Shown here: piece by piece, positions 5,872-10,920 of the stretch
Position numbering within the stretch: the stretch's first letter is position 1
Layout of the letters: every line of letters starts with the position of its first letter
From: Candidatus Thorarchaeota archaeon
GTDB lineage: Archaea; Asgardarchaeota; Thorarchaeia; Thorarchaeales; Thorarchaeaceae
Assembly (NCBI GenBank): GCA_021498125.1
Contig: JAIZWL010000001.1
Location: 633,434-697,433, forward strand
Direction of reading: 5' to 3'
DNA length: 64,000 nucleotides
Position numbers and translations under genes: made by a program
The notes under the pieces: model-generated
Database searches by the model: none
The model's input: the letters and a program-made list of their open reading frames with translations, nothing else
Told to the model about the DNA's origin: nothing

Positions 5872-6411
5872 ATGATTAGTGATGCAAAGACCCAAAATAT
5901 CATAATTGTTTCAATGATTATTGTGAGCGTTATCAGTGGGATCAGTCTATACACAAGTGCTTCCTATTATGGTGGAAGCTACGTTATGGTCACATACTTG
6001 GATGTCAATCTCGAGAGCGTTAGAATATCTAATTTTGATCCTACAAATCACAGTCTCAATCCTCGGCTCACACTCGATTTTCGATTTGAGGCTCCTATGA
6101 CTCTCAATGGCGATGCTACCCTCTCGTTCTTGCTGGCGACGGTCTTTCTCAACAATGAGTCAATTACCTATTCTGCGTTCCGACTGAATGTACCCTCCGA
6201 GAAAAGGGCTCTTCATCCCGGATATAATGAATCATTTATCCTATCTTCCGAGATCAATGACAATCTAGATAAGGCGATATTCTTTAATGCCTCAGAGAGT
6301 GGTCAATGGATCTTCAGTATCCGTTTGATAATCTCTTATCATGTCTTCAAATCAACTGTTGATTCTCACCGTATTATGCTATTTGCTCAGGAAGGTGCTG
6401 TATTCGAGTAG
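5872..6411 (+). CDS. Membrane-anchored extracellular protein, unknown
   Basis: I do not recognise this 179-residue protein. An N-terminal hydrophobic segment (about residues 9-27, IIIVSMIIVSVISGISLY) is followed by a polar, probably beta-rich domain with several Asn-x-Ser/Thr sites, so it is likely exported and anchored by its N-terminus. GAGGAAGA lies directly before the ATG. It follows the presenilin-like protease with a short gap, so the two may be expressed together, and it converges with the isomerase gene on the other strand. Confidence 0.75.
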   Translation: MISDAKTQNIIIVSMIIVSVISGISLYTSASYYGGSYVMVTYLDVNLESVRISNFDPTNHSLNPRLTLDFRFEAPMTLNGDATLSFLLATVFLNNESITYSAFRLNVPSEKRALHPGYNESFILSSEINDNLDKAIFFNASESGQWIFSIRLIISYHVFKSTVDSHRIMLFAQEGAVFE

Positions 6412-9709: not shown

Positions 9710-10108
9710 ATGAAACTGGATGAGGGATCCTTTATGGTTCTTAAAGCCGCTCCGGGTGCGTACTCCTGCAGCTCTCTTCCATTGCCTCAGTCATGGGATC
9801 CTGTCAAACGACCACATGTTGCATTATTGATTCCTACTGGAAATGAGTTGTTCCGTGTCATGCTTTCTACTCCCCAAAATAATAATGACCATTTGGAAAT
9901 ATCGAACCTGAGTAAGATCGATGTTGGTTCTATTATCGAGATACGCTATGGCGAAGTCGAGTATAAATATTTTAGAAAAGATAGTACTGGCTGGACCAAT
10001 GTCGGTGCCTCTGACGATCCCTTCTTTGTAGAAGTGTTTACTTCTGGTCTGACCCCTCTGTATCTTATTGCGCTTGAGACACCTATACGATCACTCATGA
10101 ACGAGTGA
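9710..10108 (+). CDS. Small soluble protein of unknown function
   Basis: I do not recognise this 132-residue protein. It has no membrane segment. Composition is ordinary and probably beta-rich, with PHVALLIPTGNELFRVML and VGSIIEIRYGEVEYKYFRK. The ATG at 9710 overlaps a short GATGAAAA leader with no strong ribosome site; an ATG at 9734 would also serve. It is isolated: about 250 bases of AT-rich DNA precede it and the 800-base non-coding cluster follows. Confidence 0.55.
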   Translation: MKLDEGSFMVLKAAPGAYSCSSLPLPQSWDPVKRPHVALLIPTGNELFRVMLSTPQNNNDHLEISNLSKIDVGSIIEIRYGEVEYKYFRKDSTGWTNVGASDDPFFVEVFTSGLTPLYLIALETPIRSLMNE

Positions 10109-10186
10109 CTTTGTTTTTGTGTAATGCTTATAGTCTGCAGTCTTCACCTGCTACTTTTTCTGGCTGACAAATTTGATTCGAAAAAA

Positions 10187-10349
10187 TACATGAGTGTGTG
10201 AGGAGGCGCAAAAAAGAGAAAGGTTCGCTTTGGTTGCTTGAGAGGAGGAGAGGAACTCTCTTAGGAGAGGATGTGTGCACTTCAAATGCGATCAGGATTG
10301 TGGGAGGGGTTCTCGTTTTACAACGAGTTCTTGCGCCTCCTCGACACAT
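10187..10349 (-). ncRNA. Putative stem-closed RNA with C/U-rich loop (element 1, minus strand)
   Basis: A 12-base perfect inverted repeat (GAGGAGGCGCAA at 10200-10211 and its complement at 10331-10342) extends to about 17 pairs with one bulge and would close a 119-base loop. On the minus strand the loop is C/U-rich and contains CTCTCCTCCTC, shared with element 2. A TATA-like TTATTAA (10375-10381) lies about 29 bases before the stem, and six Ts follow it on that strand (10181-10186), as expected for a short independent transcript. Strand and transcription are inferred; no known RNA family is recognised. Confidence 0.5.
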
Positions 10350-10374
10350 TCAAGGAATATTAGGAAGCTACTTC

Positions 10375-10381
10375 TTAATAA
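10375..10381 (-). promoter_or_regulatory. TATA-like box of ncRNA element 1
   Basis: TTATTAA on the minus strand lies about 26-32 bases before the first paired base of element 1 (10349), the usual archaeal TATA-to-start distance. Confidence 0.4.
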
Positions 10382-10453
10382 GGGTTGCGATTATCGCCAA
10401 AAATTACCGTAGTTCTTGCGAACTTCGCAAAAATACATCAATCGTAGATTTTA

Positions 10454-10460
10454 TTATATG
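10454..10460 (+). promoter_or_regulatory. TATA-like box of ncRNA element 2
   Basis: TTATATG starts 36 bases before the GGGG of the element 2 stem. The same heptamer lies 33 bases before the matching GGGG of element 3, so the promoter-to-stem layout is repeated. Confidence 0.5.
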
Positions 10461-10486
10461 GGTATAATACAATGCATACACAACTA

Positions 10487-10552
10487 ACCGGGGCCATTTC
10501 TCTTGTTCCCATTATTCTCTCCTCCTCCTTCCTGCGTTCTCTAGGCCCCGGT
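10487..10552 (+). ncRNA. Putative stem-closed small RNA with C/U-rich loop (element 2)
   Basis: A perfect 9-base inverted repeat, ACCGGGGCC (10487-10495) and GGCCCCGGT (10544-10552), closes a 48-base loop rich in C and U. The loop contains CTCTCCTCCTC (10517-10527), the same 11 bases as in element 1, complementary to GGAGG-type ribosome-binding sequences. A TATA-like box precedes it. There is no strong T-run after it, so the 3' end is uncertain. Confidence 0.55.
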
Positions 10553-10756
10553 ATCCTCCTCTTGTTTCTTTATGATCTGACGTAATTGAGTTCTTTTTTG
10601 ATTCCCTGGATCACAATGAATGAAAACACATTCATGGAATGCAACTATGGTGGACAGATCGTGACACATTACATGTCTCATTGAAAATGGTCGTATACTA
10701 CTTCTCCGACACTACGCGCATTCTATTATTGTTTCGAGGCAATACCACCAATACGC

Positions 10757-10763
10757 TTATATG
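10757..10763 (+). promoter_or_regulatory. TATA-like box of ncRNA element 3
   Basis: TTATATG lies about 29 bases (from its centre) before the first paired base of element 3. It is identical to the box of element 2. Confidence 0.5.
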
Positions 10764-10788
10764 CTAATATAACCTATTACGAAATAGT

Positions 10789-10869
10789 CGGGGACCACTC
10801 CCAACCGCTACTCTACAACCTCTCTCTCATCTGACATTTCTCATTCTAGGTCCCCGCGGACTCTTTTTT
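10789..10869 (+). ncRNA. Putative stem-closed small RNA with C/U-rich loop (element 3)
   Basis: CGGGGACC (10789-10796) pairs with GGTCCCCG (10849-10856) around a 52-base C/U-rich loop (includes CCTCTCTCTC). The sequence then reads CGGACTC and a run of six Ts (10864-10869), a good archaeal terminator. The TATA-like box is at the right distance upstream. The plan matches element 2: G-rich 5' arm, pyrimidine loop, and TTCT...CTAGG at the 3' arm. It does not carry C/D-box motifs (no TGATGA), so it is not an ordinary C/D guide RNA. Confidence 0.6.
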
Positions 10870-10920
10870 AGCAATCTTTAAAGGTGCGCCAAGGCTGTCA
10901 GAGGTCGAAGGTGACTCAAA

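Follow-up and report, generated by a model that had tools for sequence, protein, structure and literature searches.

Three predicted small RNAs with stem-closed, pyrimidine-rich rings conserved in Candidatus Thorarchaeota

Introduction

Of all known lineages, the Asgard archaea are most closely related to eukaryotes. C/D box sRNAs are recognized by box C (RUGAUGA) and box D (CUGA), which occur twice. The archaeal Hgc RNAs are GC-rich, lineage-restricted orphan ncRNAs of unknown function that were found by composition. In Methanosarcina mazei, sRNA162 is an intergenic sRNA restricted to its lineage, and its unpaired region masks a predicted ribosome binding site (PMC3510493). The alpha-r14 RNAs are built of three hairpins; their anti-Shine-Dalgarno motif CCUCCUCCC is ultraconserved and unpaired, and the stems diverge widely in sequence (PMC10746234). 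Eukaryotic Y RNAs have paired ends, a pyrimidine-rich loop in several members and a polyuridine tail (PMC4726728). We found no description of conserved Asgard small RNAs in the open-access literature.

Here we analyzed a window of 64,000 nucleotides from the 3.1 Mb genome of a Candidatus Thorarchaeota archaeon (G000, C1:633434-697433). One of its intergenic regions (10187-10869) harbors three stem-closed elements, E1 on the minus strand and E2 and E3 on the plus strand. Nearby genes encode, among other proteins, a Snf7/ESCRT-III homologue and a NUBPL/Mrp ATPase, and the relatives carrying the same locus also bear the name Candidatus Thorarchaeota.

Results

The original prediction described three GC-rich inverted repeats of 12-17, 9 and 8 bp closing pyrimidine-rich loops, and direct reading of the sequence found all of them, stems and loops, where it had placed them. 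The identical TTATATG boxes of E2 and E3 stand at exactly the predicted distances before GGGG, E1 has its own TATA-like box on the other strand, six Ts follow both E1 and E3, and the 11-base loop sequence CTCTCCTCCTC is indeed common to E1 and E2. Covariance models were built from E2 (R1), from E1 (R2) and from E3 with its promoter (R3). The features are as follows.

10186-10181, minus strand: six Ts after E1, 8 bases beyond the outer stem, a probable terminator
10195-10348, minus strand: predicted E1 RNA, stem GAGGAGGCGCAA/TTGCGCCTCCTC of 12 bp; R2 match 10200-10342
10381-10374, minus strand: TATA-like box of E1, TTATTAAG, 39 nt before the inner stem, a spacing retained in relatives
10385-10399, strand-neutral: palindrome TTGCGATTATCGCCA, one mismatch to TTGCGANNNTCGCAA, adjoining the E1 TATA box; probable operator
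10416-10430, strand-neutral: second palindrome, TTGCGAACTTCGCAA, at a distance of 31 bp from the one above and flanked by the divergent E1 and E2 promoters; probable operator
10454-10460, plus strand: TATA-like box of E2, TTATATG, 36 nt before GGGG (10490)
10487-10552, plus strand: predicted E2 RNA, ACCGGGGCC (10487-10495) paired with GGCCCCGGT (10544-10552), 9 bp; R1 match 10489-10550
10757-10763, plus strand: TATA-like box of E3, TTATATG, 33 nt before GGGG (10790)
10789-10856, plus strand: predicted E3 RNA, CGGGGACC (10789-10796) paired with GGTCCCCG (10849-10856), 8 bp; R3 match 10756-10856
10862-10869, plus strand: T-rich tract after E3 with six Ts at 10864-10869, a probable terminator
10877-10883, plus strand: TTTAAAG, the separate, conserved TATA-like box of the downstream membrane-protein gene

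The E1 stem is extended by TGTGT/ACACA past one bulged base, giving 17 bp altogether. It closes a large ring with the single-stranded motifs CCCTCCCACAATCCTGAT, CACACATCCTCTCC and CTCTCCTCCTCTCAAGCAACCAAAGCG, and small hairpins are grafted at the ring joints. A minimal E1 of 80-95 nt, stem plus ring, is found in genus g5. E1 of other genera has three conserved unpaired segments, with one to three hairpins inserted where these meet. The pyrimidine-rich loop of E2 has the near-invariant core TCTCTCCTCCTTCC..GCGTTCT, with one extra CTC unit in this genome, and in the E3 loop CCCAACCGCTACTC..ACCTCTCTCTCATCTGACA is conserved within the genus. At the E2 position of one relative (G015, 6153-6230 in the locus orientation used), a stem-loop was seen whose ring lacks the usual CTCTCCTCC core, possibly a diverged or replaced E2.

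Both strands of the window were scanned for stems of at least 8 bp with at least 5 GC that close loops of 35-150 nt with at least 72% pyrimidine. Exactly E2 and E3 were found, each with a TATA-like box; 20 dinucleotide shuffles of the window gave one such structure altogether and none with a TATA-like box upstream. Folding, which had been proposed as a check, bore out E1, whose energy was significant (z -6.2), and did not do so for E2 (z -1.8) and E3 (z -0.9), neither of which was significant. Such weak energies are expected of one short helix around a large unpaired loop. Judged by energy z-scores alone, E2 and E3 would have gone unnoticed, and the proof of the elements is the comparative evidence from the sequences of relatives.

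Loci in relatives were located via the neighboring Mrp gene. The training sequences of R1 and R3 were N-padded, and some long loops of R3 were shortened mid-loop before alignment. In the unedited model matches over 41 loci, from which the stem pair counts were taken, the closing stems were paired in 96.9% (R1/E2), 93.0% (R2/E1) and 96.4% (R3) of cells, in model-made alignments that lean towards the structure of the models. The original prediction had staked its reading on compensatory changes in relatives, and these are abundant in all three stems: in the same loci, 13 stem cells were changed on both sides in E2, 61 in E1 and 58 in the E3 plan, for which the R3 set mixes E3, E2 and two E1 matches. 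The covariation scores were reached by 0 of 500 shuffles for all three stems, and sliding the partner by one base lowered the pairing to at most 78%. In the closing stem of E1, 10 of the 12 pairs show changes on both sides. The E2 stem ACCGGGGCC was swapped wholesale in relatives (AACTCAAGAGTCA, CGACCTGAGGA, GTGCTTGGGGC) with the pairing kept.

R2 also found nine genomes outside its training alignment (best E 1e-12). Among the four species of the genus, identity to the RNA bodies of this genome was 85% for E1, 77% for E2 and 89% for E3; in the same comparison, the E2-E3 spacer was 20% identical and the 3' flank of E1 41%. The strands were assigned from promoters, T-tracts, ring composition and the counts of G-U against A-C cells in the stems (7:0, 12:7 and 13:2); this G-U excess is consistent with the assigned strands, in models that themselves tolerate G-U. 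Comparison makes it almost certain that E1-E3 are real conserved structured RNAs.

The three elements appear to form the small family that had been proposed. R3 gave 52 matches in the 331 kb of the 41 loci, of which 34 were of E3 type, 16 lay at the E2 position with a lower score, two lay on E1 and none was elsewhere. Within the loci, a model built from E3 thus picks up only E2 and, weakly, E1 besides elements of its own type, so the three share a plan. In this plan, a TATA-like box is followed after 33-42 nt by a GC-rich stem and then by a CU-rich ring; the TATA-to-stem spacing is fixed (about 33-42 nt) in almost all relatives, though stems and box variants differ. Independent transcription, also part of the original prediction, is supported by this box at fixed spacing before each element and by the divergent orientation of E1. 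It is further supported by the separation of E2 and E3 by 1.2-3.5 kb in part of genus g5 and by the separate TTTAAAG box of the next gene. An own promoter at a fixed distance, a covarying structure and conservation in relatives are among the features looked for in an sRNA gene, and all three were found here.

Over 228 Asgard genomes, the covariance models found E1 in 23, E2 in 24 and E3 in 35, under many-genome filters that were stricter and lose weak matches. All were in one GTDB family, which was represented by 47 genomes. A direct scan or the motif additionally revealed E2 in G007, G009, G010, G020, G026 and G033, where R1 had missed it, and genera g10, g4 and g2 have either no E1 or a degenerate one. 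According to R1-R3, each element is single-copy per genome; two equal-scoring E2 matches near contig ends in G027 probably reflect an assembly break, and R3 with looser settings gave no further genome-wide copies in five genomes. In a pattern scan for E1 over 84,980 species, each represented by one genome, the matches fell in Thorarchaeota and in scattered unrelated taxa, where they look like chance. In viral contigs, the E2 pattern had no match and the E1 pattern a single one that looks like chance. Because they are conserved across the family with strong compensatory changes, E1, E2 and E3 look like a real, undescribed RNA family.

E1-E2-E3 recur in one order and orientation across the family, with HAD/hypothetical genes on one side and the membrane-protein gene on the other. 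G014 and G029 retain these neighbors of the cluster, with Mrp located elsewhere. The gene of a conserved hypothetical protein without a Pfam match (9710-10108, plus strand) and E1 converge in most relatives; this protein was not found in two of the three genomes of genus g10, where E1 is missing.

The original prediction recognized no known class, in agreement with our searches. Rfam 15 gave no match above the gathering cut-off in the whole window and none up to E=10 in 10100-10920, and ARAGORN gave no tRNA or tmRNA match in the window. C/D box sRNAs were considered and rejected, as E1, E2 and E3 contain no UGAUGA on sequence reading and have no Rfam match. The Y RNA-type lower stem, with a bulged C opposite a three-nucleotide bulge, is absent: the E2 and E3 stems are uninterrupted, and E1 has a single unopposed bulge. 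None of the 37 same-family genomes searched has TROVE/Ro60 (PF05731). In a search of 59 genomes, a partial TROVE (Ro60-like) match was seen just once, in an Asgard genome of another family (G048:C47:4822-5025).

E1 and E2 are divergent, and the promoter region common to both contains two palindromes (TTGCGANNNTCGCAA), which may be the operator for a regulator of E1 and E2. They are present, with varying quality, in most genomes having E1 and are largely absent where E1 was lost. Genome-wide, perfect matches to TTGCGANNNTCGCAA number two in G000 and two in G003, in each case one at E1/E2 and one unlinked (G000:C5:128952, G003:C462:4272). The unlinked loci contain a fourth, longer stem-closed ring RNA, E4 (G000:C5:128738-129048, minus strand; G003:C462:4077-4369). 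It has a stem of its own, AGGCAGGCC/GGCCTGCCT versus AGGCAGGTCG/CGACCTGCCT, with one compensatory change between the two genomes, the ring motif CCTCTCTC and the conserved promoter ACACAACAAAAGAACTTAAATTG. At E4, the likely TATA box precedes the palindrome, which may therefore have another role at this locus. No ring RNA was found beside the perfect palindromes elsewhere in G001 and G002, and BLAST with E4 beyond G000 and G003 gave weak matches that, on reading, were not E4-like.

Discussion

The best explanation of these data is one Thorarchaeota-specific family of three sRNA genes whose rings would act in trans on initiation regions, and we give this reading as a whole an even chance. Within it, the structure, conservation, promoters and family relation of E1-E3 are shown by comparison of the related loci. 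Each element would be transcribed from its own TATA promoter, with a start about 5-15 nt before the stem. The short GC-rich terminal helix would hold both ends together and present a mostly unpaired, pyrimidine-rich ring of ~40-120 nt with conserved motifs. A regulator at the paired TTGCGANNNTCGCAA palindromes would switch E1 and E2. The ring sequence is fixed and that of the stem is free to change, so the ring is most likely the functional part. In the least certain steps, the stem would protect and display the ring, and the ring would pair in trans, over short stretches, with purine-rich translation-initiation regions (GGAGG/GAGAG) and thereby repress translation.

CCUCC, the complement of the SD core, occurs in the ring cores of both E1 and E2, and the 16S ends with GGATCACCTCCT. 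The anti-SD reading rests on this CCUCC, the 16S tail and the analogy with alpha-r14; the absence of CCUCC from E3 of this genus weighs against it. The rings paired best just upstream of starts; shuffled rings did equally well, so this pairing reflects base composition. Perfect antisense targets of the E2 core were near the chance level, with none orthologous among those read, and targets of the E1 CUCAAGCAACCAA segment were near the level of a reversed-pattern control. Complementarity between rings and rRNA in the 12 kb stretch around 16S amounted to one isolated 12-mer.

The rings may instead be protein-binding platforms, either as the scaffold of an RNP or as a sponge for a protein that binds pyrimidine tracts or single strands, with base pairing uninvolved, and we regard this as a serious competitor with somewhat under an even chance. 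Conservation of the ring motifs extends over 13-17 nt and takes in non-pyrimidine parts (CUCAAGCAACCAAGCG, GCGUUCU, CCCAACCGCUACUC), and no conserved complementary target was found for the E2 core or the E1 CUCAAGCAACCAA segment. Hairpins may insert at the ring joints with the motifs undisturbed, as in protein-scaffold RNAs. The motifs are also longer and more exact than a generic anti-SD requires, a feature that a protein or a specific partner would explain equally well. However, E1, E2 and E3 lack one long common motif beyond CUCUC/CUCC. Antisense action by the rings is placed slightly ahead of protein binding.

It is very unlikely that E1-E3 are cis-acting leaders or attenuators of neighboring genes. 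E3 does lie upstream of the conserved membrane-protein gene, but its distance to this gene ranges from about 70 to about 600 nt, and the gene retains its own TTTAAAG box after the E3 T-tract, an arrangement that speaks against E3 as its leader. E1 is directed towards the 3' end of a convergent gene, and the E2-E3 gap in part of genus g5 also counts against such a role. Even less probable are DNA elements such as protein sites or replication-origin-like dyads; some dyads are GC-rich with G-runs, but wholesale stem replacement with pairing kept, G-U pairs and the fixed TATA spacing point to RNA. Least credible of all are Y RNA-like Ro RNPs with a Ro60 partner, which share the outline of paired ends and a pyrimidine-rich loop (PMC4726728), but the 37 same-family genomes lack TROVE/Ro60, E2 and E3 have no upper stem, the bulged lower-stem Ro site is missing and no Rfam model matched, so that E1-E3 are not Y RNAs.

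A further idea, which we consider doubtful, is that these elements represent a new archaeal RNA kind, 'ring RNAs'. Its hallmark would be a conserved single-stranded ring, held shut by a short terminal helix and accepting hairpins at fixed joints. E1-E3 would then belong to a co-regulated set of three or four paralogues acting via a Thorarchaeota-specific RNP or target. E1-E3 offer comparison-supported RNA genes with shared promoters, models that find them in draft genomes and a candidate operator, which makes RNA-based regulation in an Asgard lineage directly testable by RNA sequencing.

Like the Hgc RNAs, E1-E3 are lineage-restricted archaeal ncRNAs, and no Rfam model of any family matched them. 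Like sRNA162, they are archaeal, intergenic and lineage-restricted; in sRNA162 the single-stranded linker is the most variable part, whereas the ring is the conserved part here, so the architecture differs and there is no homology. A conserved CCUCC-type motif in an unpaired region together with variable stems was found in E1 and E2 and not in E3 of this genus. Alpha-r14/NfeR1 of alphaproteobacteria has three hairpins in one bacterial RNA, whereas the Thorarchaeota elements are separate archaeal genes with longer ring motifs and, in this genus, an E3 without CCUCC. The likeness, without demonstrated sequence homology, lies in the near-invariant, CU-rich and CCUCC-containing unpaired motif that alpha-r14/NfeR1 shares with E1 and E2, set in stems that differ (PMC10746234).
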